From contig CAJYVD010000023.1 in the NCBI GenBank assembly GCA_913778495.1, positions 1 to 32,068 of the forward strand: a stretch of DNA of 32,068 bases, read 5' to 3'. The notes under the pieces were generated by a model. The model was given only the letters and a program-made list of their open reading frames with translations, was not told the origin of the DNA and searched no databases. The DNA is from an uncultured Pantoea sp. (GTDB lineage Bacteria; Pseudomonadota; Gammaproteobacteria; Enterobacterales; Enterobacteriaceae). The position numbers were made by a program, and so were the translations under genes. How positions within the stretch are numbered: the first letter of the stretch is position 1; the number at the start of each line of letters is the position of its first letter. Of the stretch, positions 541-17,821 are shown in pieces.

Positions 541-2226
541 TCACTCCTGCATGGGCAAATTCAAGCCAAATTTTGTTGCGCAGGCCTGCGCCTGCTCATA
601 GCCCGCGTCGGCATGGCGCATCACGCCGGTGGCGGGATCGTTCCACAGTACGCGAGCCAGGCGCGCATCGGCTTCGGCTGTGCCATCGCACACGATCACC
701 ACACCAGCGTGCTGAGAAAAGCCCATGCCCACGCCACCACCGTGGTGCAGGCTTACCCACGTGGCGCCGCCCGCGGTGTTAAGCAGGGCGTTAAGCAGCG
801 GCCAGTCAGACACCGCGTCGGAGCCATCCTTCATCGCCTCGGTTTCGCGGTTGGGTGAGGCGACAGAGCCGCAGTCGAGGTGATCGCGGCCAATGACGAT
901 CGGGGCTTTTAACTCGCCGTTGCGCACCATCTCATTAAACGCCAGCGCGGCTTGATGTCGCTCGCCAAGGCCCAGCCAGCAGATGCGCGCCGGCAAGCCC
1001 TGAAAAGCGATACGCGTCTGCGCCATGTCCAGCCAACGGTGCAGGTTTTTATGATCCGGGAACAGCGCCTTGAGCTTGGCATCGGTTTTGTAAATATCCT
1101 CGGGATCGCCCGACAGCGCTACCCAGCGGAACGGGCCTTTGCCCTCACAAAACAGCGGACGAATATAGGCCGGTACAAAGCCGGGGAAATCAAACGCGTT
1201 CGCGACGCCTTCATCCAGCGCGACCTGACGAATATTGTTGCCGTAGTCCACGGTCGGCACGCCCATGTGATGGAAGTCGAGCATCGCCTGGACGTGCACG
1301 GCCATCGACGCCCGCGCCGCTTTTTCTACTGCTTTAGGGTTGCTCAGACGCTCAGCCTGCCACCGCGCCACGTCCCAGCCCAGCGGCAGATAGCCGTTGA
1401 TGGGATCGTGGGCCGAAGTTTGATCGGTCACGATATCTGGCTTCATACCGCCTGCTTTGGCTCGCTTCACCAGCTCAGGCACAATCTCCGCGGCGTTGCC
1501 CAGCAGACCCACGGAGATCGCCTGTTTGGCCGCCGTGGCGCTTTCAATCAGCGTCAATGCCTCATCCAGCGTGTAGGCTTTGTGATCGACATAGCGGGTG
1601 CGCAGGCGGAAATCGATGCGCGACTCCTGGCACTCAATCGCCAGCACGCAAGCGCCTGCCAGCACCCCCGCCAGCGGCTGCGCGCCGCCCATACCGCCCA
1701 GACCGGCGGTGAGGATCCAGCGGCCACGGAGATCGTTGTGGTAATGCTGACGGCCCGCCTCGGCAAAGGTCTCAAAGGTGCCCTGGACAATGCCTTGGGC
1801 GCCAATGTAAATCCACGAGCCTGCGGTCATCTGGCCATACATCATCAAGCCGGCTTTATCCAGCTCGTGAAAGTGATCCCAGTTAGCCCAGTGCGGCACA
1901 AGGTTCGAGTTCGCCAGCAGCACGCGCGGCGCATCGGCATGCGTGCGGAACACCCCCACCGGTTTGCCGGACTGGATCAGCAGCGTTTCATCCGGCTGCA
2001 GAGCGCGCAGCGAACGCAAAATCTGTTCAAAGCAGGCCCAGTTGCGCGCCGCCTTGCCAATGCCGCCGTACACCACTAAGTCTTCCGGGCGCTCGGCGAC
2101 GTCAGGATCAAGGTTGTTCTGGATCATGCGGTACGCGGCTTCAATCAGCCAGTTGGCGCAATGCAGCGTGTCTCCCTGAGGGGCACGGATTTCACGCGCC
2201 ACGGCCTGCGTTAACGTTTCGCTCAT
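541..2226 (-). CDS. hutU: Urocanate hydratase (urocanase) HutU
   Basis: Second step of histidine breakdown: urocanate plus water to imidazolonepropionate, using tightly bound NAD+, in the cytosol. The 561-residue product has the usual family length and is colinear with known urocanases. The glycine-rich NAD-binding stretch [10 protein letters not shown] is at residues 175-184, and the C-terminal part has the [14 protein letters not shown] segment carrying the conserved Cys. An ATG at 2232 is also in frame, but the Shine-Dalgarno GAGGA (2234-2238) sits only 1 base from it and 7 bases from the ATG at 2226, so 2226 is preferred. The hutH stop TGA is embedded in this ribosome site, which suggests translational coupling. 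The gene is distal in the hutH-hutU operon and is followed by the left repeat block. Confidence 0.97.
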
Positions 2227-2236
2227 TATCATTTCC

Positions 2237-3790
2237 TCACTGGGTAAAAGAACGCTGGCTGGGCAGCAGCGCAGTCAACGTATCGGGCCACGCATCGCTG
2301 CTGGCCCACAGGCGCATGGCCTCAATATCCGGCGCCAGTAAACGATCGCGATCCAGAAACGCCACGCGCGCGCGGATGCGGCTAAGCTGCTGTTCCAGCG
2401 CGGCGGAGCTTTGTAGGGGACGATGGAAATCGATGCCTTGTGCCGCCGCCATGGCTTCAATGCCGACCACGGCTGCGGTGTTGAAACACATACTGCCGAG
2501 GCGACGCGCGGCGTAAGTGGCCATCGAAACGTGATCTTCCTGATTGGCCGAAGTGGGCAAGCTGTCAACGCTGCCGGGATGCGCCAGCGACTTGTTTTCC
2601 GACGCCAGCGCGGCCGCCGTAACCTGCGCAATCATAAAGCCGGAGTTGACACCGCCGTCGTGCACCAGAAAAGCAGGCAGCCCGGACAGGCCGGTATCCA
2701 GCAGCAGCGCCAGGCGACGCTCGGAGATCGCCCCGATTTCGGCGATCGCCAGCGCAATGATGTCGGCGGCAAACGCGACCGGCTCGGCGTGGAAATTGCC
2801 GCCGGAAATCACGTCACCGCTGTCGCTGAACACCAGCGGGTTATCGGAGGCGGCGTTAGCTTCAATTTGCAGCACCCGAGCGGCGTGGTGCAGATTATCG
2901 AGGCAGGCCCCCATCACCTGCGGCACACAGCGGATGGAGTAGGGATCCTGCACCCGACCGCAGTGGCTGTGCGAGTGCAGGATTTCGCTGCCGAGCAGCA
3001 GCTCGGACACCGCCGCCGCCACGGCGATCTGCCCGTGCTGGCCGCGCGCCGCATGAATACGGGCATCGAACGGTTTAACTGAGCCTTTAATGGCTTCCAG
3101 CGACAGGGCGCCTGCCACCAAACCGGCGGCAAACACGTTTTCAGCCTCGAACAGGCCGCGCAGGGCCAGCGCGGTGGACACCTGGGTGCCATTCAGCAGC
3201 GCCAGGCCCTCTTTGGGTCCAAGCACAATGGGCTGCAGCCCGACGCGGGCCAACCCTTCGCTCGCCGGGATACGCTGGCCGTCAACCCGCACTTCGCCTT
3301 CCCCCAGCAGCATCAGCGACAGGTGTGCCAGCGGCGCGAGATCGCCCGAAGCCCCCACCGAGCCCTTCTCAGGAATGCAGGGCAGGATACCGGCGTTAAA
3401 CAGCGCCAGCAGCGCATGGATCAGCTCAATGCGTACGCCGGAATGTCCGCGCGCCAGGCTGATAATCTTGGTGGCCATCACCAGGCGGGTGACGTTGTCG
3501 GGCAGCAGATCGCCCAGCCCTACGCTGTGCGACAGCACCAGATTGCGCTGCAGTTCCGCCAGTCGCTGCGACGGAATTTGCGTCTGGGCCAGTTTGCCAA
3601 AGCCGGTGTTGATGCCGTAAACCACTTTACCGGTGGCCACAATCTCGTCCACCGTTTGCTGCGCGCGCGTGATGGCCGCATAGGCCTCGTCGGCCAGCGA
3701 GAGGTGAACGCTGCGCTGATAAATGCAACGCAGCGTGGCGAGGTCCACTTCACCGGGAATCAGGCGAATGTTCTGACCAGAACCTGACAT
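2237..3790 (-). CDS. hutH: Histidine ammonia-lyase HutH
   Basis: First step of the pathway: L-histidine to trans-urocanate and ammonia, in the cytosol. The 517-residue protein has every hallmark of an active enzyme. The Ala-Ser-Gly tripeptide at 147-149 ([14 protein letters not shown]) cyclises to the MIO electrophile. Tyr58 lies in YGINTGFG, His in LSHSVGLG, Asn in LNGTQ, the QDPYSIR segment carries the catalytic Tyr, NFHAEP carries the conserved Phe, and QEDHVS the Glu. ATG at 3790 has AGGAG 6 bases upstream. That ribosome site abuts a HutC operator (3799-3812). hutU follows 10 bases after the stop. The upstream sigma-54 element and second HutC operator indicate nitrogen-limited, urocanate-induced expression. 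Contrast with the MIO-less paralogue at 12198-13700. Confidence 0.98.
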
Positions 3791-4095: not shown

Positions 4096-4851
4096 ATGTC
4101 GGAGCAGAGGACGGTGGCGCAACTGGCCGCAGCGATGGGTGAAGAACCGGCCCCGATTTATCAGCGCGTGAAACAGGCTATCGTCAGCCAGATTCGCGAG
4201 GGCCACTGGAAAGCCAACCAGCGCGTGCCGTCAGAGAGCGAGCTGGTGAGTGCGCTGGGCGTCAGTCGTATGACCATTAACCGCGCGCTGCGTGAGCTCA
4301 CCGGCGAAGGGTTCCTGGTGCGTATGCAGGGCGTGGGCACCTTTGTTGCGGAGATGAAGGGCTACACCGCGATGCTGGAAGTGCACAACATCGCCGATGA
4401 GATTGCCCAGCGCGGCCATCGCCACAGCTGTAACATCTTATCGATTGGGCAGACCAAGGCCGATCCCGAGCAGGCTGCGCTACTGGGGCTGTCAACCGGA
4501 CAAACGCTGTTTCACTCGCTGATGGTGCACTACGAAAATGATCTGCCGGTGCAGCTGGAGGATCGCCTGGTTAATCCGCTGGTGGCGCCTGATTACCTCA
4601 CCCAGGATTATCACAGCGTGACGCCCTATACCTACTTGATGCGCGTGGCGCCGCTCACCGCCGGTGAGCACATTGTCGAAGCGGTGCTGCCCGATCTGCG
4701 CCAGCGCAAGCACCTGGCGCTGGATGAGCATGAGCCGTGCCTGCTGATCCGCCGTCAGACGTGGAGCGATACCAAAATCGTTACTTACGCGCGCCTGCTT
4801 TATCCAGGCTCGCGCTACAAGCTGCTGGGCCGTTTTCGGGGACACGGTTAA
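4096..4851 (+). CDS. hutC: Histidine utilisation repressor HutC (GntR family)
   Basis: DNA-binding repressor of the hut genes; urocanate is the inducer in characterised homologues. The 251-residue protein has an N-terminal GntR winged helix (about 18-85, with PSESELVSALGVSRMTINRA as recognition region) and a C-terminal UTRA effector-binding domain (about 95-240). It begins at ATG 4096 after AGGAACGGAA. It faces away from hutH, sharing the regulatory gap that holds three candidate operators, one just upstream of its own start. Its 3' end overlaps the convergent hutD by 71 bp, so the last two dozen codons of each gene are read from the same DNA. It is the only GntR/HutC-type regulator in the window and so the obvious binder of the TGTATATACA sites. 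Confidence 0.95.
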   Translation: MSEQRTVAQLAAAMGEEPAPIYQRVKQAIVSQIREGHWKANQRVPSESELVSALGVSRMTINRALRELTGEGFLVRMQGVGTFVAEMKGYTAMLEVHNIADEIAQRGHRHSCNILSIGQTKADPEQAALLGLSTGQTLFHSLMVHYENDLPVQLEDRLVNPLVAPDYLTQDYHSVTPYTYLMRVAPLTAGEHIVEAVLPDLRQRKHLALDEHEPCLLIRRQTWSDTKIVTYARLLYPGSRYKLLGRFRGHG

Positions 4852-5374
4852 GCGTCACCCACAGCAGGCTGGCCTCGGGTGTCGCCGGGGTCAGCGTCAG
4901 CACCTCATCTTGCCACCAGACGCCCTGTTGCGACGCCAGCGCTTCACCCTGCGCGGTGTGCCAGCTGCCGGTCAGCACCCACGCCACACCTTGCATGCCG
5001 GAAACCCTCTGCTGCACCACCGCCACATCCGCCTGCCAGCGAGCGCGGCGCGTCATGATATTGAAATCAAGACAGCGCCCATCAATCTGCGCCTCAATGG
5101 CCCACTCGCCGGGAAACGCCCACGGCTGATGCCGCTGCAAGCGCTGTTCGCCTTGCGCACTGCGCAATAGCACGCTGTCGCCGTCCAGTAAGGTGATCAC
5201 CCGATCCACGCCGGGAAAGCGGGAAAAGGGCCCGTCTACGGCGATGGTGGCAATGCTGGCGCGCCAGCCAAACTCCGCCTCGCCGGGAGGAAAGCTGACA
5301 ATCTCACGCGTGTGGCCGCCGCCGTTGCGCCAGCGCGTCACCGGCAGGCTGTCAAAGTCGTAATATGTTTTCAT
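4781..5374 (-). CDS. hutD: HutD family protein
   Basis: A 197-residue protein of the HutD family (cupin-type fold). The family is usually found in hut clusters. In Pseudomonas fluorescens HutD has been proposed to limit hut activity, perhaps by binding urocanate; its biochemical role is not settled. The N-terminal signature VTRWRNGGGHTREI (residues 12-25) is clear. A longer frame runs upstream to 5731, but it lies over hutF in another frame, so I take ATG 5374, which overlaps the hutF stop by 4 bases (ATGA). The C-terminal tail runs 71 bp into the convergent hutC gene. It is the second gene of hutF-hutD. Confidence 0.92.
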   Translation of the reverse strand: MKTYYDFDSLPVTRWRNGGGHTREIVSFPPGEAEFGWRASIATIAVDGPFSRFPGVDRVITLLDGDSVLLRSAQGEQRLQRHQPWAFPGEWAIEAQIDGRCLDFNIMTRRARWQADVAVVQQRVSGMQGVAWVLTGSWHTAQGEALASQQGVWWQDEVLTLTPATPEASLLWVTLNRVPENGPAACSASLDKAGARK

Positions 5375-6726
5375 TGCAGCGCCCGCACGGCAGCCACGAA
5401 ACGCTGCGCGGCAGCCTGCTCTTCGGCGTGGTGACCCTGATCGATCACCTGCTGACCGGCAACGAAGACGTCGCGAATCTGCTGGGTGTGACCGGCAAAC
5501 AGCCAGCGATTGAGGCGCGCAGCGGGCGTCACGCTGGCGAGGAGCGCATCCTGTTGCAATACCAGCCAGTCGGCGCGCAGGCCAACCGCCAGCGCGCCCA
5601 TCGACACGCCGCAGGCTTGCGCACCCCCTTGGGCGGCCTGCTGCCAGAGCAGATCGCCCACCGATGGCGCGTCGGGCAGCGCGATGCGGTTGCGGCGGCG
5701 ATCGCGCAGCCGTTGACCGTACTCCAGCCAACGGAGCTCCTCCAGCGCGCTCAGCGAGACGTGGCTGTCAGAGCCGACGCCCCAGCGGCCGCCGCGCGCC
5801 ACGTACTCCACGGCAGGGAAAATGCCGTCGCCCAGGTTGGCTTCGGTGGTAGGGCAGAGGCCCGCCACCGCCAGGCTGGCGGCCAACTGGGCAATTTCAT
5901 CGGCGGCCAGGTGAGTGGCGTGGATCAGGCACCAGCGGCGATCCACGTTAAAGCGGTTGAAAAGCCAGTTCACCGGACGTTCACCGCTCCATGTCATGCA
6001 GTCGTTGACCTCTTTCTCCTGTTCGGCGATGTGCAGATGCACCGGCAAGCTGGCGTCCGAAGCGGCCAGCACCGCGTGCATTTGCGCCTCGCTAACCGCA
6101 CGCAGCGAGTGGAAGCACACACCATGATTGAGACGCGGATGCGCACGACACGCGCGCGCCACGCGCTGCTGCTGCTCTAAATAGGCCTCTGTGTGCTGAA
6201 TGAATCGGCGCTGCCCCGCGCTGGCGGGCTGGGCGCCAAAGCCGCTCCACGTATAGAGCACTGGCAGCAAGGTCTGACCGATTCCGGTGCGGTCGGCGGC
6301 GTGTATCAACTGCTGCACCATCGCGTCGTCAGCGTAGGGCCGCCCCTGCGGATCGTGATGTAAATAGTGAAATTCCGCGACCTGACTGTAACCGCCTTTC
6401 AGCATCTCGATGTAAAGATGCGTGGCGATATCGCCGACCTGCTCGGGGGTGAGACGCGCCACCATGCGATACATCAGGTCGCGCCATGTCCAGAAACTGT
6501 CCTGGGGATCGCCGGCCACTTCTGCCAGCCCCGCCATGGCGCGCTGGAAAGCATGGGAGTGCAGATTCGCTATCGCCGGAATGACCGCACCGGCCAGGCG
6601 CATGGCCTCACCCGGCTGGCTGTTGGCGGCGATTGCGGTGATGTTACCGGCATCATCGGTGGTAATCGTCACGTCCTGCTGCCAGCCATCCGGCAGCAGC
6701 GCAGAGGGAGCAAAAAACACGGCCAT
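5371..6726 (-). CDS. hutF: Formimidoylglutamate deiminase HutF
   Basis: Fourth step in the five-step route: N-formimino-L-glutamate plus water to N-formyl-L-glutamate and ammonia. The 451-residue amidohydrolase-superfamily protein shows the metal and catalytic set at the positions I recall for Pseudomonas HutF: His56 and His58 (HSHAFQR), His232 and Glu235 (HLHIAEQE), His269 (HATHL) and Asp320 (GSDSH). The start is ATG 6726; the ribosome site is weak (GAGAA). It is divergent from hutI over 85 bp that contains a HutC-type operator, and overlaps hutD by 4 bases. HutF next to HutG shows that this cluster uses the deiminase/deformylase branch and not the one-step formimidoylglutamase of Klebsiella. 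Confidence 0.96.
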   Translation of the reverse strand: MAVFFAPSALLPDGWQQDVTITTDDAGNITAIAANSQPGEAMRLAGAVIPAIANLHSHAFQRAMAGLAEVAGDPQDSFWTWRDLMYRMVARLTPEQVGDIATHLYIEMLKGGYSQVAEFHYLHHDPQGRPYADDAMVQQLIHAADRTGIGQTLLPVLYTWSGFGAQPASAGQRRFIQHTEAYLEQQQRVARACRAHPRLNHGVCFHSLRAVSEAQMHAVLAASDASLPVHLHIAEQEKEVNDCMTWSGERPVNWLFNRFNVDRRWCLIHATHLAADEIAQLAASLAVAGLCPTTEANLGDGIFPAVEYVARGGRWGVGSDSHVSLSALEELRWLEYGQRLRDRRRNRIALPDAPSVGDLLWQQAAQGGAQACGVSMGALAVGLRADWLVLQQDALLASVTPAARLNRWLFAGHTQQIRDVFVAGQQVIDQGHHAEEQAAAQRFVAAVRALQ

Positions 6727-6767: not shown

Positions 6768-6811
6768 ACTTTGGCATGCAGTGTAAATCGCCGGACGCGA
6801 AGGGGAGCAAG

Positions 6812-8029
6812 ATGGCAGCAACGCAGCAGATCGACAGCCTGTGGCTGGGGGCCGACATCGTCACCATGCGCGATGGGCGCTACAACCTGGTGCCTGACGG
6901 CGCGCTGGCGGTAAATAAAGGCGAGATTGTGTGGGTTGGACCGCGTGGCGCCCTGCCGCCGTTCTCGGCGCGCCAGCAGCGCACGTTTGACGGCGGGATC
7001 GTTACGCCGGGGCTGGTGGACTGCCATACGCATCTGATGTTCGGCGGCGACCGCAGCCTGGAGTTTGAGCAGCGCCTCAACGGTGTCAGCTACGCTGAAA
7101 TTGCCGGCCAGGGTGGCGGTATTCTTGCCACAGTGCGCGCCACGCGTGCCGCCACGGAGCGACAGCTGGTGGAGCAGGCGCGCGTGCGGCTGGCGCGGCT
7201 GCTGGCGGAAGGCGTCACCACGGTGGAGATCAAATCCGGCTATGGGTTGGATGAGGCCAGTGAGCTGAGGCTGCTGCGCGCCATACGTGCGCTGGCGCAG
7301 ACGGTCCCGGCGGATGTGCGCGCGACCTGTCTGGCGGCCCACGGTTTTCCACCGGAGTTTACCCATCAGCCGCAGGGCTGGATCGATATCATTTGCGAGC
7401 GGCTGTTGCCGCAGGTTAAAGCCGAAGGGCTGGCGGATGCGGTAGACGCGTTCTGTGAACATCTCGCGCTCTCACCGGCGCAGGTCAGCGCGGTGTTTGA
7501 TAAAGCCCGCGCGCTCGGCTTGCCTGTGAAACTGCACGCTGAGCAGCTCTCGGCGCTGGGCGGGGCGGAGCTGGCGGCCCGCTACGGAGCGCTCTCGGCA
7601 GATCATCTGGAGTATGCGACTGAGGCTGACGTCATGGCCATGGCGCAGCACGGCACCGTTGCGGTGCTGCTGCCGGGCGCGTTTTACCTGCTGCGCGAAA
7701 CGCAGCGTCCACCGGTGGCGCTGTTTCGCCAGCACGGCGTGCCGATGGCGCTGGCCAGCGATGCCAATCCGGGCACGTCCCCGGCGCTGTCGCTGCGCCT
7801 GATGCTCAATATGGGCTGTACGCTGTTTGGCTTAACGCCGGAAGAGGCGCTGGCGGGCGTGACGCTATGGGGCGCAAAAGCGTTGGGAATGGAACGGACG
7901 CACGGCTCGCTGGAGCCGGGCAAAGTCGCGAATTTCGTACACTGGGAGCTGCAGCGCCCGGCAGAGTTGGCTTACTGGCTGGGCGGGCAACTGCCGTGCC
8001 AGGTTATCTATCGTGGAGACGCGCAATGA
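6812..8029 (+). CDS. hutI: Imidazolonepropionase HutI
   Basis: Third step: imidazolone-5-propionate to N-formimino-L-glutamate. A 405-residue metal-dependent amidohydrolase of usual family length. Metal and catalytic residues are visible: His72 and His74 in CHTHLMF, His242 in KLHAEQ, His265 in SADHLEY and Asp317 in ASDANPG. An in-frame ATG at 6776 exists, but the one at 6812 has GGGGAG 5 bases upstream and matches the family N-terminus. The stop overlaps the hutG start (ATGA). Divergent from hutF. Confidence 0.97.
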
Positions 8030-8820
8030 CACCTTTTCATTTTACCGCCGGTACGCTGCCGCTGCTGGTGAGCATTCCTCACGCGGGCACGCAGTTAACC
8101 CCGGAAGTTGAAGCCGGATTAAGCGACGCGGCGCGCGGCCTGCCCGATACCGACTGGCACATTCCGCTGCTGTATGACTTTGTGCGCGATCTCGGCGCCA
8201 GCGTGCTGATTGGGCGCTATTCGCGCTACGTGATCGATCTCAATCGACCCGCCGACAATCAGCCGCTCTACAGCACGGCGACCACCGGGCTCTATCCCGA
8301 AACGCTGTTTGACGGCACACCCACTTTTGCGGCGGGCAAGACGCCGGACGCGGCGGTGCGCCAGCGCGATCTTGAGACCATCTGGCAGCCTTATCATCAG
8401 CAGATACAGCAGGAGCTGGCGCGGCTGAAGGCGCAACACGGCTATGCGCTGCTGTTTGATGCCCACTCCATTGCCTCCGTGATCCCGCGTTTATTTGACG
8501 GACGTCTGCCGGACATCAATCTGGGTACCAATGACGGGGCCAGCTGTTCATCGGCGGTCAGTGAGGCGCTGCAGGCGGTATGCGCCCAGCAGACGGCGTT
8601 CAGCTGGGTCGTGAACGGCCGGTTCAAAGGCGGCTACATTACGCGCGCTTACGGGCAGCCGGAACAGCACGTCCAGGCAGTACAGTTGGAGCTGGCGCAA
8701 TGTAATTATATGGATGAAACGCCGCCCTACGCCTGGCAGCAGGCGCGCGCCGCGCAGTTACAAACCGTGTTAAAGGCGCTGATCAAGGCGCTGCTTACCG
8801 CCGGCGCGCGGGCTGAATAA
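8026..8820 (+). CDS. hutG: N-formylglutamate deformylase HutG
   Basis: Last step: N-formyl-L-glutamate plus water to L-glutamate and formate. The 264-residue protein belongs to the N-formylglutamate amidohydrolase family, not the arginase-like formimidoylglutamases also called HutG in Klebsiella. Motifs: SIPHAG (16-21), DLNRP (71-75) and DAHSI (145-149), with conserved PxxF/Y blocks between. ATG 8026 overlaps the hutI stop by 4 bases. It completes the pathway with HutF. It is followed by a 268-bp regulatory gap and then the importer operon in the same orientation. Confidence 0.95.
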
Positions 8821-9088: not shown

Positions 9089-9931
9089 ATGACATCCACC
9101 CCCTCGATTCGCCGTTTTTGCCGTAACGCGCTTTTAGCTGGCCTGCTGGTGAGCGCGATGAATGCGCAGGCTCAACCCCTCACTATCGCCACCGAAGGCA
9201 GTTATGAGCCCTGGAACCTGACGCTGCCCGGCGGAGCGTTGGGCGGCTTTGAACCGGAGTTAATGACGGATCTCTGCAAGCGAATGGGAACGGAGTGCAA
9301 GCTGGTGGTGCAAAACTGGGACGGCATGATTGCCGGTTTGAACGCCGGTAAATATGACGTGATCATGGATGCGATTGTGATCACACTGGAGCGCAAAAAA
9401 GTGGTCAACTTTACCGTACCCTATGCTTCCACTCCCGCCACGTTCATCAGCAGTAAAGACGCGCCGCTGCTGCCTGCCGAGCACACCCTCCTTAAATTGC
9501 ATGACGACGAAAAAGCCATTCAGGCGGCCATTGCTCCCCTGAGAGCGGCGCTGAAAGGCAAAACCATCGGCATTGCTTCCGGCACCGTCTACACGCCCTT
9601 TATTGATAAATATTTCAAAGATATCGCTGACATCCGCGAATATACCGCCTCCTCTGACGCCATTCTGGATCTGCAGGCCGGGCGTATTGACGCGGTGTTT
9701 GACGATGTCACTTTTGCGCAATCCATGCTGGCGCGCAAAGAAAACAGCAACCTGACGTTCAGCGGCCCGCAGTTGGGTGGCCCGATATGGGGCGAGGGTG
9801 AAGCCATGGGCGTACGTATGGCGGACAGCGATCTGAAAGCCAAACTCGATACGGCCATCAAGGCCGCGCTGGCGGATGGGACGGTGAAAAAACTCAGTGA
9901 AAAGTGGTTTAAAACCGACGTAACGCCATGA
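9089..9931 (+). CDS. ABC importer periplasmic binding protein (family 3)
   Basis: Extracytoplasmic solute-binding protein that would capture the substrate and deliver it to the membrane permeases. 280 residues with a cleavable signal peptide (about 1-28, ending AQA). The mature start TIATEGSYEPWN, the block QNWDGMIAGLNAGKYDVI and the C-terminal WFKTDVTP resemble opine-type binding proteins (NocT/OccT) and histidine/arginine-binding relatives. ATG 9089 follows AGGAG. First gene of a five-gene operon, with 12 bases before the next gene. Histidine, urocanate or a histidine conjugate is the likely ligand given the hut context and operator, but the substrate cannot be read from sequence. Confidence 0.88.
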   Translation: MTSTPSIRRFCRNALLAGLLVSAMNAQAQPLTIATEGSYEPWNLTLPGGALGGFEPELMTDLCKRMGTECKLVVQNWDGMIAGLNAGKYDVIMDAIVITLERKKVVNFTVPYASTPATFISSKDAPLLPAEHTLLKLHDDEKAIQAAIAPLRAALKGKTIGIASGTVYTPFIDKYFKDIADIREYTASSDAILDLQAGRIDAVFDDVTFAQSMLARKENSNLTFSGPQLGGPIWGEGEAMGVRMADSDLKAKLDTAIKAALADGTVKKLSEKWFKTDVTP

Positions 9932-9943
9932 GTGAGGTGAGAT

Positions 9944-10663
9944 ATGTTGAGCCTGCTGAGTTTCGGTGCTGACGGCTGGGGGCGGCTCCTGCTGATGGCC
10001 ACATTGACCACGCTGCTGCTGTCGCTGTCAGCGCTGCTGATTGGCGCGATAGCCGGCGCTGCCGTTGCAGCGGCGCGGCTGTCAACGCGACGTCGATGGC
10101 GCTGGGCAGGCGAAAGCTATTCCGTTGGCTTTCGCGGCATCCCTGAGCTGCTGGTGATCTACCTGTTCTACTTTGGTGGTTCGGGGCTGATCACGCTGAT
10201 GGGGCACCTGTTTGGCGCCGAGGGATTTATCGAAGCACCGCCGTTCCTGATTGGTGCGCTGGCGATCGGACTGATCTCTGGCGCCTATCAGGGCGAGGTG
10301 TATCGTGCGGCGCGTTTGGCGCTGGCCCCGGGCGAAATCGAGGCGGCGGTGGCGATAGGTATGCCGCGCTGGCGCATTTTGCAGCGCGTGATGTTGCCGC
10401 AGATTGTGCGGTATGCGCTGCCCGGCTTGTCTAACGTCTGGCAAATGAGCCTGAAGGATTCGGCGCTGATATCGGTGATTGGCATTGTGGAGCTGATGCG
10501 TGCCAGCCAGGTGGCGGCGGGATCCACACGTAACTATTTCACCTTTTATCTGATCGGCGCGGGCGGCTATTTGCTGTTGACGCTGCTGTCGAATCAGGCG
10601 TTTCGCCGCGCGGAAAAGCGTATGGGGCGCGCATGGCAGAGCCGCACGGCGGCGCAGCCTTAA
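9944..10663 (+). CDS. ABC importer permease 1 (HisQ/NocQ-like)
   Basis: Inner-membrane permease of a polar amino acid/opine importer, 239 residues with about five membrane segments. The cytoplasmic EAA loop that contacts the ATPase is at about 111-150 (GAYQGEVYRAARLALAPG through EAAVAIGMPRW). FRGIPELLVIYLFYFGG is the typical early block of this family. GAGGTGAG precedes ATG 9944. It pairs with the next gene as a heterodimeric channel. Confidence 0.88.
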   Translation: MLSLLSFGADGWGRLLLMATLTTLLLSLSALLIGAIAGAAVAAARLSTRRRWRWAGESYSVGFRGIPELLVIYLFYFGGSGLITLMGHLFGAEGFIEAPPFLIGALAIGLISGAYQGEVYRAARLALAPGEIEAAVAIGMPRWRILQRVMLPQIVRYALPGLSNVWQMSLKDSALISVIGIVELMRASQVAAGSTRNYFTFYLIGAGGYLLLTLLSNQAFRRAEKRMGRAWQSRTAAQP

Positions 10664-10673
10664 GGAGTCTTTG

Positions 10674-11402
10674 ATGGTTGATTTCGCCTTTCTTCTGGAC
10701 ACGTTTTTTAAGCTTTGCGCCGCGCTGCCGGTGACGCTGGGGCTGTTTATTAGCGCATTCCTGTGCGGCGGCCTGTTGGCGCTGGCGATTCTGGCAATGC
10801 GCATGAGTCGCTGGCGCTTACTGAGCGGGTTTGCCCGCGGTTATATCCTGGTGTTTCGTGGGTCGCCGCTGCTGATTCAGCTGTTTCTCATTTATTACGG
10901 CTTGGGCCAGTTCGGTGCGGTGCGACACAGCGTGCTGTGGCCGCTGTTGCGTGAACCCTTTATTTGCGCGGTACTGGCGTTATCACTGTGCACCGCCGCC
11001 TACACCACCGAAATACTGCGCGGTGGCCTGCTGGCCGTGCCTGCGGGGCAGGTTGAAGCGGGGCTGGCCTGCGGCATGTCACGCGGCGTACTGCTGCGGC
11101 GTATTATCGCACCGATTGTGCTGCGCTATGCGCTGCCCGCGTACTCGACAGAGGCCATTTTACTGGTGAAATCAACCGCGCTGGCCAGTTTGGTGACCGT
11201 CTGGGATGTGACCGGTGTGGCGCAGCAGATCATTCAGCGGACTTATCGCACGATGGAAGTCTTTCTCTGTGCGGCGGCAATCTACCTGCTGCTCAATTTC
11301 ATTATTGTGCAACTTTACGCGCTAATTGAGCGCCGTCTGACCCCGATGCAGCGCAGCCGAAAAAAGCCGCTGCCCGCCGTTAACCCGCTTGCCGGAGAGT
11401 AA
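10674..11402 (+). CDS. ABC importer permease 2 (HisM/NocM-like)
   Basis: Second inner-membrane permease, 242 residues. [20 protein letters not shown] near residue 60 and the EAA loop ([20 protein letters not shown], about 107-126, then ACGMSRG) identify the HisM type. A TTG three bases upstream is in frame, but ATG 10674 has AAGGAG 6 bases before it and is preferred. The gap to permease 1 is 10 bases and to the ATPase 1 base, so the four transport genes are tightly packed. Confidence 0.88.
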
Positions 11403-11403
11403 T

Positions 11404-12201
11404 ATGTCAATGCCTTCACCTGTGACTTTATCCGTGACCCAGCTGAGTAAATCGTTCGGCACGCTCGAGGTATTAAAAGGTATCTCGCTGCAGGCGCAGC
11501 AGGGCGAAGTGATCGCCATTTTGGGTGCCAGCGGCTCAGGGAAAAGCACTTTTTTACGCTGTATCAATTTGTTAGAGACGCCAGATGCCGGGGTAGTGAG
11601 CGTGGGTGGTGAAACCATCGCGATGAAGCGCGATGGGCGCGGTCGGGCACTTGCCGCGAATCCTCGGCAAATTGAGCGGCTGCGTGCGCGACTCGGCATG
11701 GTGTTTCAGAATTTTAATTTGTGGTCCCATATGACCGTGCTGCAAAACGTGATTGAAGGACCGCACTACGTGCTCAAGCGCGACAAAAAAAGCTGTATCG
11801 CGCAGGCCGAGCGGCTGCTGGATCGCGTTGGGCTGCTGAACCGCAAAGATTTTTATCCGGCTCAGCTCTCTGGGGGACAGCAGCAGCGCGTGGCGATCGC
11901 CCGCGCGCTGGCAATGGACCCGGAGGTGATGCTGTTTGATGAACCGACGTCGGCACTGGATCCCGAGCTGGTGGGGGAGGTGCTGAGCGTAATGCGCAGC
12001 CTGGCGGAGGAGGGGCGTACCATGCTGGTGGTAACGCATGAAATGAGCTTCGCCCGGCACGTTTCACACCGGGTGGTGTTTATGCATCAGGGAAAAATTG
12101 ACTGTGAAGGTCCGCCGGAGAGCCTGTTTGGTGCGGGTGGCTCGCCGCGCTTCCAGCAGTTTATTTCACGTCACCAGCACGCGGTGGAGCAGCCACGATG
12201 A
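11404..12201 (+). CDS. ABC importer ATPase (HisP/NocP-like)
   Basis: ATP-hydrolysing subunit of the importer, cytosolic face of the membrane, 265 residues. Walker [10 protein letters not shown] at 41-49, Q-loop in VFQNFNLW, signature [10 protein letters not shown], Walker B VMLFDEP, D-loop SALDPE and H-loop THEMS are all intact. Start ATG 11404 follows GGAGAG; the frame opens earlier at a TTG inside the previous gene. The stop overlaps the ATG of the HAL-like gene by 4 bases, coupling it to the transporter. Confidence 0.92.
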
Positions 12202-13700
12202 GGGTCGTGTGGGGCGACGCGCCGATTGGCTGGCAGAGCGTGGTGGCGGTTGCGTGTCATGATGCTGAGCTAAAGCTAAGCGCAGGCGCCTGGCAGCGCA
12301 TTGCGCAGGGGCGTGCGATCGTGGATCACATTGTCGCGTGCGGCCACATTGCCTACGGCATCAACACCGGGCTGGGGGCGCTGTGCAATATCACGCTGCC
12401 CGATGACCAACTGTGTCTCCTGTCGCGTAATACGCTGTTGAGCCACGCCTGCGGGGTAGGCCCACTGCTGACGCGCGCGCAGACGCGCGCCATTATGTGC
12501 GCCGCTATCGCCAATTACAGTCAGGGGAAATCGGGCGTATCGGTTGCGCTGGTGCAGCATCTGCTGACGCTGCTCAACCAGCAGATCACGCCGCAGGTGC
12601 CCTCACAGGGATCGGTAGGCTACCTTAGCCATATGGCGCACATCGGTCTGGCGCTGATCGGCGTCGGCAACGTGACGTATCAGCAGCATACGCTCCCGGC
12701 CAGCGAGGCACTGGCTCGCGTCGGGCTAGAACCATATCAACCTGGTGCTAAGGAGGGATTGAGTCTGGTGAACGGCACGCCCTGCATGACAGGATTGGCC
12801 TGCCTGGCGTTGGGTGAAGTCGCCGAGCTGCTGGACTGCGCTGATGTCACTGGCGCGATGAGTTTTGAGGCGCTGCGAGGGCAGCTGGCAGCGTTCGATG
12901 CCGAGGCGTTGGCCCTCAAGGCCAGTCCAGGGATACAAATCAGTGGTCAGCGCCTGCGGCAGCTGCTGCAAGGCAGTCCCCTGTTAGCTGCCAGCGTGGG
13001 CGTGCGTACCCAGGACGCCATGAGTCTACGATCTATGCCGCAGGTGCACGGTGCCAGCCGCGATCAATTCGCTCATGCGGTGCGGCAGATTGAAACAGAG
13101 CTCAACGCCTGTACCGACAATCCGCTGGTGCTGGGCACGCTGGATAATTGGCGCGTGGTGTCGCAGTCCAATCCGCACGGTGAGTCTGTGGCAATGGCGG
13201 CGGATCTTCTGGCCATCGCGATGGCGGAACTCGGCAGCATTGCCGAGCGACGGCTTGATCGCCTGGTGAATCCGCTGGTGAGCGGCTTGCCCCCCTTTTT
13301 GGTGGCGCAGCCGGGAGTGAATTCCGGGATGATGATCGCCCAATATGTGGCTGCCTCGCTGTGCGCGGAGAATCGTCACCTGGCGCAGCCTGCGGTGCTG
13401 GATAACTATGTCACTTCGGGCTTGCAGGAGGATCACTTGAGCCTTGGCACCGGCGCGGCACTCAAGCTGCTCAAGCTGGTGGGGAACGTATGGCACATTT
13501 TAGCGATTGAGTACCTGCTGGCCGCGCAGGCGCTGGACTTCCACGGCGAGGCGCAGCTGGCGCAAGGTACACAGCAGGCACTGCGAGCCTTGCGCGCGCG
13601 CGTAGCGAATTGGCAGACGGACCGCTGGCTGGCACCGGATATCACCGCGGCGGTGCAGGTGCTACAGCAGCATGCCGCGCGCTGGCGTGTGCTGGCATAA
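12198..13700 (+). CDS. Histidine ammonia-lyase-like protein lacking the MIO tripeptide
   Basis: A 500-residue member of the aromatic amino acid lyase family, full length and in frame. Fold-level motifs persist: YGINTGLG (Tyr53), [13 protein letters not shown] (Asn192), TDNPL and QEDHLSL. The active-site loop differs: HutH reads [14 protein letters not shown], while this protein reads [11 protein letters not shown]. The downstream residues stay in register only if exactly Ala-Ser-Gly is removed. In addition the QDPYSIR motif is QDAMSLR (Met275 for the catalytic Tyr), and the NFH Phe is Pro326. It therefore should not form MIO or deaminate histidine by the known mechanism. Last gene of the importer operon, 4-base overlap with the ATPase. 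Similar HAL-like genes beside ABC transporter genes occur, as I recall, in pseudomonad hut loci. The function is unknown; ligand binding or a different reaction on an imidazole substrate is possible. Confidence 0.9.
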
Positions 13701-15558: not shown

Positions 15559-16281
15559 TCACGAAACGTGTTGCAGGAACTCGCGTAAACGTTCACTCGG
15601 TGGGTTGGTAATCAACGCATCCGGGTGCCCATCTTCGGCGATGGTGCCTTTATCAATGAAGATCAGACGCGAAGCGACCTTCTGCGCAAAGCCGACTTCA
15701 TGGGTGACAATCACCATGGTCATGCCTTCTTCGGCCAGATCCTGCATCACTTTCAGCACTTCGTGACGCAGCTCGGGATCGAGCGCTGAAGTGGGCTCAT
15801 CAAACAGCATCATTTTCGGTTTTACCGCCAGCGCGCGGGCAATGGCCACGCGCTGCTGCTGTCCACCGGAAAGTTCGGACGGGAAGTGATGCGCCCGCTC
15901 GGCCAAGCCCACTTTACCCAGCAGTTCGCGTGCCAGTTTGTGCGCTTCTTCTTTGCCGCTGCCGCGCACCCGAATAGGGCCAAAGGCCACGTTGTCCAGG
16001 GCGCTCATTTGTGGGAACAGGTGAAACTGCTGGAAAACCATGCCGGCTTCCTGACGGATCAGCCGCTCATCGACTTTGGGATCGTTCACTTTCATGCCGT
16101 CGACGATCAGTTCACCGCTGCTGATCTCTTCAAGCTTATTGATGCAGCGCAGCAGAGTGGATTTGCCTGAGCCGGACGGCCCGATAATCACCACCACTTC
16201 GCCTTGGTTGATCTTCAGGTTGATGTCATGCAGTACTTTGGTCTGACCGAAGTTTTTAGAGACGTTTTTAAATTCAATCAC
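15559..16281 (-). CDS. glnQ: Glutamine ABC importer ATPase GlnQ
   Basis: ATP-binding subunit of the high-affinity glutamine importer. 240 residues as in E. coli, colinear throughout. Walker [10 protein letters not shown] (34-42), [10 protein letters not shown] signature, Walker B MMLFDEP and H-loop THE are intact; it ends EFLQHVS. The start is a GTG at 16281 whose GTGA overlaps the glnP stop by 4 bases. No ATG alternative fits. Confidence 0.97.
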
Positions 16282-16937
16282 AGGATTTTCACCCTTTTCT
16301 CAATACGGCGCAGCACAAAGCTCAACACCAGCGTAATAACCAGATAGATAATGGCGACCGCGCTCCAGATCTCCAGCGCGCGGAAGTTACCCGCGATGAT
16401 CTCTTGTCCCTGACGCGTCAGTTCCGCCACGCCAATCACGATGAACAGCGAGGTATCTTTGATGCTGACAATCCACTGGTTCCCCAACGGCGGCAACATA
16501 CGGCGCAGCGCCAGCGGCATGATCACATAGCGCAGCGTCTCCCGGCGTGACAGACCCAGCGCCAGACCCGCTTCACGGAACCCTTTGTTGATAGAGAGCA
16601 CGGCACCGCGGGTGATTTCCGCAATATAGGCGCCGGAGTTGATCATGATGGTGACCACCGCCGCCGTGAAGGGATCGATACGTAAATCGGGGAAAGCCAT
16701 CGGCAGGGCAAAGTAGATGAACATCACTTGCACCACGATAGGCGTGCCGCGGATCAATTCAATAAACACCAGCGCGATGTTGTTGGCGATCCAGCCGCCG
16801 TAGGCGCGCGCGAAACCGGCAACGAGGCCGATAATCAGGCCGCCGACCAGGCCAAGAACGGAAATAAGCAGGGTCATTTTGGCGCCGTCGATCAAGATCG
16901 GCAGGGCTGGCCAGATGACGCTCCAGTCAAACTCCAT
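16278..16937 (-). CDS. glnP: Glutamine ABC importer permease GlnP
   Basis: Inner-membrane permease of the glutamine importer, 219 residues, about five membrane segments and an EAA loop ([15 protein letters not shown]). [20 protein letters not shown] is characteristic. An earlier in-frame ATG at 16961 would add eight residues, but ATG 16937 has CTGGAG 7 bases upstream and gives the E. coli length. Translationally coupled to glnQ. Confidence 0.96.
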
Positions 16938-17020
16938 GTGTAACTCCAGAATCTGTTGCAACGGAAGGGTAAAAAGCAGGGAAATCGCGTTCCCTGCTCA
17001 AAAAGCGGCGTAAGCCAAAA

Positions 17021-17767
17021 TTATTTCGGTTCGGTGCCGAACCATTTTTTATAGATAGTGTTGTAGGTACCGTTGTCGCGCAGAGTTTTCAGCGCGCCGT
17101 TAACCTTTTCACGCAGATCGTCGCTGCCTTTCGGGAAGGCGATACCGTACTGCTGCGCTTCGATCGAATCACCCACAGCTTTGAAACGGCCTTTGCCCGC
17201 GGTGTGGATGAAATAGAGGATGTTTGGCGTATCGTGCAGCACGGCGTCTGCGCGGTTGGTGCCTAATTCCATGTAAGCGTTATCGATGTTAGGGAACTGA
17301 CGCAGATCTTTGGTTTTGATATGCGCTTTCGCGTAGTCAACCGAACCGGTTCCGCTTTTCACGGCAACGGTTTTGCCGTTCAGATCGTCAATGCCTTTGA
17401 TGTCATTTTCGTTGCTGCGCACCATGACCTGCAGGCCGCTTTTGTAGTAGCCATCAGAGAATTCTATGGCTTTTTTGCGCTCCTCAGTGATGGTGATGCC
17501 CGCCAGCGCCAAATCAACGTTTTTGGTTTGCAGAGCCGGAATGATGCCGCTGAAATCCATCGGCTTGAGGGAATAGTCCAGCTTCAGCTGTTTAGCGATG
17601 GCATCCCATAAATCGATATCAAAGCCGACATACTTATCGCCCTGTTTGAATTCAAATGGCACAAATGCCGTGTCGGTGGCGACGATCAGTTTCTTTTCTG
17701 CTGCGGTGGAAGAGAGAGAGAAGGCCAGCGCCAGCGCGGCCGCGGAGACTTTTAACAGTGACTTCAT
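17021..17767 (-). CDS. glnH: Glutamine-binding periplasmic protein GlnH
   Basis: Periplasmic glutamine receptor for GlnPQ. 248 residues with a signal peptide (about 1-22, ending STAA). The mature protein starts [17 protein letters not shown] and keeps [23 protein letters not shown] and the terminal WFGTEPK of E. coli GlnH. Tandem ATGs at 17770 and 17767 both lie near AAGGA; the second gives the E. coli start and is chosen. First gene of glnHPQ, controlled by a sigma-54 promoter. Confidence 0.97.
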
Positions 17768-17821
17768 CATTTTTTTCCTTATTACCCCTCAGGCCTGCTG
17801 GCCTGATGACGGCTTATCATA

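Follow-up and report, generated by a model that had tools for sequence, protein, structure and literature searches.

The MIO-less lyase gene and its neighbourhood

A stretch of 32,068 nucleotides from an uncultured Pantoea sp. (GenBank assembly GCA_913778495.1, contig CAJYVD010000023.1), referred to here as the window, carries at 12198..13700 (+ strand) a gene for a protein of the histidine ammonia-lyase (HAL) family that lacks the Ala-Ser-Gly tripeptide of HAL, and hence the electrophile 4-methylideneimidazole-5-one (MIO). The gene begins with ATG, and its 500-residue product, assigned below to the HutH1 family, matches PF00221 over the full-length domain (525.2 bits, residues 12-466). The curated HutH model TIGR01225 scores it at 513.2, below the cut-off of 539.15, and the broader NCBIfam model NF006871 (histidine ammonia-lyase) is just met (525.9 vs a cut-off of 524). 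In family and length the protein corresponds to the histidine ammonia-lyase HutH (solved structures PDB 1b8f and 7tqr). Only two HAL-family matches were found in the window's genome assembly, this protein and the window HutH, which share 45% identity.

The lyase gene is the last of an operon. It follows genes for a family-3 solute-binding protein (SBP; 9089..9931, +), whose nearest solved relatives are nopaline- and octopine-binding proteins, for two ATP-binding cassette (ABC) permeases of the ArtQ/HisQ type (9944..10663, +) and the ArtM/HisM type (10671..11402, +, TTG start), and for a HisP-type ATPase (11389..12201, +), the stop of which is overlapped by the lyase start by 4 bases. To the left of the operon lies a complete hut cluster. 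This consists of hutU for a canonical-class urocanase (541..2232, -), hutH for a histidase with intact Ala-Ser-Gly (2237..3790, -), the hutC repressor gene (4096..4851, +), hutF (5371..6726, -), hutI (6776..8029, +) and hutG (7867..8820, +). The true start of hutG is probably within the open reading frame (ORF), and its family match begins at residue 58.

Deletion of the tripeptide and the active-site residues

The shortened loop is encoded at 12609..12641 (+). Compared with the loop of the window HutH, it has exactly three residues fewer, namely the Ala-Ser-Gly, and the register is identical afterwards, as claimed in a preliminary description made from the sequence of the window. Both residue replacements reported there are present as well. 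The HAL motif QDPYSIR reads QDAMSLR (13011..13031, +), with Met at the position of HAL Tyr280 and Arg278 kept, and NFH reads NPH, with Pro326 (13173..13175, +) at the position of HAL Phe329. The residues described as retained are also found, with codons for Tyr53 at 12354..12356, His83 at 12444..12446, Asn192 (HAL Asn195) at 12771..12773 and Glu411, the Glu of QED (HAL Glu414), at 13428..13430, all on the + strand. Tyr53 is taken here to be the beta-proton base of HAL. Together with Arg278, these four residues form invariant columns in a 39-sequence alignment of the family.

The same pattern runs through the family. All three residues of Ala-Ser-Gly are absent from 39/39 representatives, which were mostly chosen by the loop motif, and from 5/5 plasmid members, which were chosen by protein similarity. 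In HAL numbering, Tyr53, His83, Asn195, Gln277, Arg283, Gln412 and Glu414 are kept in every one of the 39. The position of Tyr280 holds Leu in 37 and Met in two, never Tyr, and that of Phe329 holds Pro in 25, Ala in 13 and Cys in one, never Phe. The alignment shows no variation at Tyr142, His145 and Met146 of the loop either, but these three belong to the search pattern; in the rhizobial plasmid copies, found independently of that pattern, Tyr142 and His145 recur and Met146 is replaced by Asn.

In a wider comparison, Tyr280 and Phe329 were present in 68/68 sequences with Ala-Ser-Gly, and Tyr280 in 0/54 sequences lacking it, a set that contains the solved ergothionase 6s7j; Leu, Met, Val or Glu stands there instead. 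One further sequence without Ala-Ser-Gly (L312) has Val at this position. Ala-Ser-Gly and Tyr280 thus occur together or not at all in 122/122 sequences compared, a rule that would provide a simple means of correcting database annotation. According to excerpts of one paper, mutation of Y52, H82, N194 or E411 abolishes the activity of a Geobacillus HAL, and no MIO is formed in the F329G mutant of Pseudomonas putida HAL (PMC11432326). The residue pattern and these mutant data together indicate that the residues for binding and proton removal are kept, while those belonging to MIO are gone.

Distribution and selection

The loop reads GSVG-YL[S/T]HMAH in 30/30 same-genus loci read, the window's own included (L001, L003-L031). 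A sequencing error as the origin of the deletion, a concern raised in the preliminary description, is ruled out by this recurrence and by the same loop in other genera. Among 147 genomes of the window's relatives (own included), 44 have a match of at least 64% identity and the next match is at 45% or less, which leaves a gap. Within the genus, 41/60 genomes carry the lyase at 77-95% identity. One more carrier, G508 at 59%, came from 369 evenly sampled genomes of the class, with the window's own counted among them. A pattern with a freer loop centre (GSVGY, any single hydrophobic residue, two unrestricted positions, MAH) matched 16/398 genomes of the phylum (own included), and all 16 read YL[S/T]HMAH; the reversed loop pattern gave no match among the genomes listed in this 398-genome scan.

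A motif scan of named genomes returned at least 119 stretches across genera. The presence of a motif-bearing ORF in all 119 is circular, since the search pattern required the motif. Carriers among the matches listed include Pseudomonas (with P. aeruginosa PA7), Burkholderia, Paraburkholderia, Serratia, Halomonas, Salinicola, Nitrospirillum, Paracoccus, Labrys, Gluconobacter, Paenibacillus, Brevibacillus and Sulfobacillus, among others. Searching plasmids by protein similarity, which avoids this circularity, gave 163 records at E < 1e-100, of which 140 were from Rhizobium; most of the 25 records listed were annotated as hutH or histidine ammonia-lyase. The five of the 163 that were read share the same three-residue gap and have Leu at 280 (5/5), and three of them carry the variant loop GSAGY-L[T/V]HNAH. 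Identity to the window protein reaches down to ∼43% within the family.

The ratio of non-synonymous to synonymous substitution rates (dN/dS) against the window copy was 0.07-0.15 for 13/13 same-genus copies, by which a relaxed or dying gene is ruled out for the window's relatives. Outside the genus it was 0.15-0.23 in four of five comparisons, the fifth having saturated dS. For HutH, eight of nine comparisons gave 0.06-0.16 and the ninth gave 0.42.

Among the ten genomes with a match in the genus and family of G508, three hold broken or partial lyase copies (G529, G538 and G556; L082-L084), and because of these the gene seems dispensable there. In Serratia rubidaea G1038 (L282) an Ala-Ser-Gly HAL-family gene reads as split pieces and the MIO-less gene is open; in Polaromonas G1014 a HAL-family gene whose loop was not read is likewise in split pieces, and the MIO-less gene is again open. 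Either case may be an assembly error.

Phylogeny

An 82-row tree was built from columns outside the loop and eleven active-site positions, using 28 of the 68 Ala-Ser-Gly sequences. In it the 40 family rows fall on one side of a branch with a Shimodaira-Hasegawa-like approximate likelihood ratio test (SH-aLRT) support of 99, and a FastTree run with the plasmid members added likewise placed 45 family rows on one side of a branch. The preliminary description had asked whether such loops form a single clade and whether an intact tripeptide is nested among close relatives. The family is one branch, and no Ala-Ser-Gly sequence was nested among the family relatives read. The 12 ergothionase-like rows and two rows with the loop GSVGY-LIATAH each formed a group of their own apart from the family in the free tree.

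The two latter proteins come from genomes of the window's genus (L067, G041:C2:594000-598500; L069, G060:C7:47000-57000). They resemble the family in the three-residue deletion, the Tyr after GSVG and the replacement of Tyr280 by Leu, but differ in having Ser for Asn195 and Gly for Phe329, and lie on a separate long branch. Another MIO-less kind was noticed in L289, L291 and L292, where the HAL-family loop reads GT[LV]GE-GDL, Tyr280 is replaced by Glu and Phe329 by Trp.

Importers upstream of the lyase

Gene neighbourhoods were compared in 44 loci (38 regions of named genomes, five regions of further genomes and the window), which are not independent of one another. An importer gene lies directly upstream on the same strand in 40 of them, in accordance with the earlier proposal of a lyase fold kept in a transport operon. 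The proposal that these lyases always stand next to family-3 importers did not hold. The 40 importers comprise 19 family-3 ABC systems (L272 is counted here though its contig ends before the SBP gene), 14 OpuAC-type ABC systems, six betaine/carnitine/choline transporter (BCCT) carriers and one family-5 ABC system, with at least seven changes of importer type across 32 tree rows. On the plasmids, a family-3-type ABC operon precedes the lyase in four of five loci.

The Pfam names of OpuAC and BCCT mark both as betaine-type transporter families. The OpuAC-type SBP of Paenibacillus is closest to precursors of acetylcholine/nicotine sensors, then to ProX and the ergothioneine protein EgtUC, and that of Pseudomonas has a glycine betaine/proline protein as its closest relative. 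For the BCCT carrier that was searched, the nearest relatives are a trimethylamine transporter and BetP. With the ligand-cage positions presumed to correspond to those of BetP, the aromatic cage residues W, Y, Y, W and Y are present in 6/6 BCCT proteins, and one further reference Trp is Ile. Directly after the lyase of Sinorhizobium sp. B11 stands a gene with the annotation N-methyl-L-tryptophan oxidase (L316 8501-9631).

Linkage to hut genes and the urocanase classes

Hut enzyme genes lie within the stretch read in 30/44 loci, and a hutC repressor gene is close to the lyase on plasmids of Rhizobium, Sinorhizobium and Burkholderia. A urocanase was found in 39/39 carrier genomes vs 4/14 control genomes. 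Two draft genomes combine the lyase with genes for urocanate degradation. In Paenibacillus eucommiae the sole PF00221 gene is the MIO-less lyase, in an operon of the order importer-lyase-hutU-hutI. Gluconobacter sp. Dm-62 has two PF00221 genes, both without Ala-Ser-Gly and one of them the MIO-less lyase, plus hutU, hutI, hutF and hutG. An Ala-Ser-Gly histidase was not found in the available sequence of either draft genome.

Four genomes (Burkholderia sp. BCC1644, Paenibacillus sp. PL91, Gluconobacter and Brevibacillus) carry both the lyase and an ergothionase-like gene. The ergothionase-like genes (L288, L303, L307 and in L312) have a loop shorter by one residue, and each has, at a distance of ∼5 kb or less, a urocanase from a second class that is 48-52% identical to the window HutU and forms one branch (SH-aLRT 100). 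Of the urocanases in the loci of the lyase family, 17/19 belong to the canonical class, at 64-100% to the window HutU. The simplest reading of this difference in urocanase class is that the MIO-less lyase yields urocanate and the ergothionase-like enzymes thiourocanate, so that urocanate rather than thiourocanate is the more likely product of the lyase.

Ergothionase-like genes were recorded in L068 (G041), L303/L308 (Paenibacillus sp. PL91), L288/L309 (Burkholderia sp. BCC1644) and L312 (Brevibacillus). The active-site letters of L288 are identical to those of 6s7j, and the second urocanase class near such genes (L308, L309, L312) is a candidate thiourocanate hydratase.

Relation to HutH1 of pseudomonads

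In P. salomonii, P. syringae, P. putida and P. aeruginosa PA7 the lyase follows a hutXWV-type importer within the hut cluster, in line with the earlier suggestion of relatives near pseudomonad hut transporters. In excerpts of a review, the gene order of P. fluorescens SBW25 is given as hutU-hutTu-hutXWV-hutH1-hutH, HutH1 is described as a histidase, and hutH1 is dispensable for growth on histidine (PMC8871633); neither the missing MIO nor a substrate is mentioned in these excerpts. The P. salomonii layout equals this order, on the basis of which the MIO-less family is identified with HutH1. The comparison is one of position, the SBW25 sequence not having been used, and the description of HutH1 as a histidase and the different class of the window's own importer set the two apart. 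The subfamily suspected in the preliminary description is therefore wide, as proposed, but not wholly undescribed, since hutH1 already has a name in P. fluorescens.

In P. aeruginosa PA7 the MIO-less lyase is close to hutH, a layout that implies its presence in PAO1 too. By the PA7 gene order and the PAO1 numbering, PA5093 would presumably be this lyase. In PMC12772324, PA5093 is called hutG, and the urocanate growth defect reported there for PA5093 is what hutG or a polar effect would give, rather than a lyase acting upstream.

Proposed function

The family is best described as a HutH1-type, MIO-free branch of HAL, most likely a trimethylammonia-lyase for hercynine (N-alpha-trimethylhistidine, histidine betaine). 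Excerpts of PMC13405746 describe ergothionase as a HAL homologue without MIO that frees trimethylamine from ergothioneine; a HAL fold is thus able to eliminate a quaternary amine without MIO, and this trimethylamine-releasing chemistry is the model for the reaction suggested here. Building on the observed deletion, residue pattern, single branch, selection and linkage to importer and hut genes, the following substrate, catalytic steps and residue roles are proposed. The adjacent importer would bring in the betaine. His83 and Glu411 would bind the imidazole, Arg278 would bind the carboxylate, and Tyr53 would remove the beta proton. With trimethylamine, itself a good leaving group, the MIO electrophile would be unnecessary, and the space vacated by MIO, Tyr280 and Phe329 could accommodate the trimethylammonium group. 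The products would be urocanate and trimethylamine, of which urocanate would enter the neighbouring hut pathway and could induce it via HutC. It is the combination of a betaine importer with urocanate as the product that points to hercynine as the substrate.

Several observations weigh against this assignment. Four of the 44 loci (L252, L262, L273 and L279) have no upstream importer, 14 have no hut enzyme gene nearby, and around the Aminobacter plasmid copy both importer and hut genes are missing. In the SBP of the window and in its relatives an Asp is retained that would suit an ordinary amino acid equally well; in HisJ-type SBPs this Asp is assumed to bind the free alpha-amine. Substrate specificity as judged from the family-3 SBP sequences is ambiguous. 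Two urocanases in the lyase loci are not canonical, one of Sulfobacillus (53%) and one of Brevibacillus (47%) that stands right after the lyase, beside a canonical one. In P. salomonii (L311, G1005:C20) a divergent, long-branch urocanase, 43% identical to the window HutU, lies by an Ala-Ser-Gly HAL, so that not every divergent urocanase accompanies a MIO-less lyase. A match to the family of EgtD, the enzyme that forms hercynine, was found in 12/40 genomes and is absent from the window's own, so most carriers would scavenge hercynine and an outside supply must be assumed. Hercynine is a product of fungi and actinobacteria. A clade joining the family with the ergothionase-like rows was not rejected by the approximately unbiased test (p-AU 0.534) and its scores were slightly better, for which reason an MIO loss independent of ergothionase is not proven. 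Excerpts of PMC8871633 also state that the OpuAC-type importer HutXWV of P. fluorescens takes part in histidine uptake.

Four other functions were weighed against the hercynine lyase. An ergothionase, which would convert ergothioneine to thiourocanate and trimethylamine, is an unlikely identity for the family. It would agree with the MIO-free HAL homologue 6s7j (6s7j/6s7q), in which Tyr280 is replaced by Leu as in most of the family (Met in the window), with a joint clade, which was not rejected, with the resemblance of the Paenibacillus importer to EgtUC and with the extra divergent urocanase adjoining the Brevibacillus lyase. The loop of the lyase is, however, three residues short and that of 6s7j and most ergothionase-like rows one; Asn195 is kept in the lyase but is Ser in 6s7j, L288 and L303; the family occupies a separate, supported branch in the free tree; and in the four genomes that hold both kinds it is the ergothionase-like gene that lies near the second urocanase class. 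Equally improbable is a MIO-free lyase acting on some other imidazole with a good leaving group, such as ergothioneine sulfonate or a histidine that is partly methylated or otherwise modified. Such a substrate would agree with the Asp that the family-3 SBPs keep for a protonated amine, with the N-substituted amino acids (nopaline, octopine) bound by their nearest solved relatives and with the annotated N-methyl amino-acid oxidase gene in Sinorhizobium sp. B11, but the OpuAC and BCCT importers in separate lineages indicate a full quaternary ammonium.

The preliminary description had left the choice between a ligand sensor, a chaperone for import and a new reaction. A catalytically dead HAL, serving as a ligand sensor, an importer partner or a regulatory subunit of HutH, is likewise unlikely. 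The loss of MIO and Tyr280, the usual place of the lyase at the end of an importer operon (40/44) and the dispensability of hutH1 on histidine in the excerpts of PMC8871633 speak for it, but the HAL-essential residues other than MIO are invariant in 39/39, the two draft genomes above have the lyase without an Ala-Ser-Gly HAL partner, and four importer classes are paired with it. Because the essential residues are kept, the partner is missing from those two genomes and ergothionase exists, a new reaction is favoured over the sensor and the chaperone. Deamination of histidine itself without MIO is very improbable. Histidine-binding residues are retained, and both NF006871 and the annotated plasmid records name the protein histidine ammonia-lyase, but MIO and Tyr280 are lost, and excerpts of PMC12772324 report that a PAO1 hutH (PA5098) deletion is impaired on histidine though the lyase should be present there by the PA7 layout. 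The gene that bears a histidase annotation in several genera is very probably not a histidase.

With a confidence a little better than even, the hercynine assignment can be extended to the statement that HutH1 is, bacteria-wide, an unrecognised MIO-free enzyme converting hercynine to urocanate and trimethylamine, and that MIO has been lost in several kinds of the HAL family, each time with Tyr280, where the leaving group needs no electrophile. If so, soil, plant-associated and opportunistic bacteria would own a hercynine pathway ending in glutamate and releasing trimethylamine, the puzzling dispensable second 'histidase' of pseudomonads would be accounted for, and the two enzymes would offer a natural comparison of the same elimination in the same fold with and without MIO. 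No description of a hercynine lyase was found among the papers listed from the open-licence literature, a weak negative given the common search terms, the incomplete listings and the few subscription journals covered; one metabolomics study, judged by its entry, contains both hercynine and urocanate.

Further observations

The Ala-Ser-Gly HAL of P. salomonii L311 has family-3 importer genes of its own and forms a further hut-like cluster. Downstream of the lyase in the window, a second family-3 ABC importer operon lies on the opposite strand (15559-17770), of the glutamine type by resemblance only. The scanned part of the right side of the window otherwise looks ordinary, with flavin reductase, RNA methyltransferase, ferritin-like, OmpX-like, efflux and sugar transporter genes.

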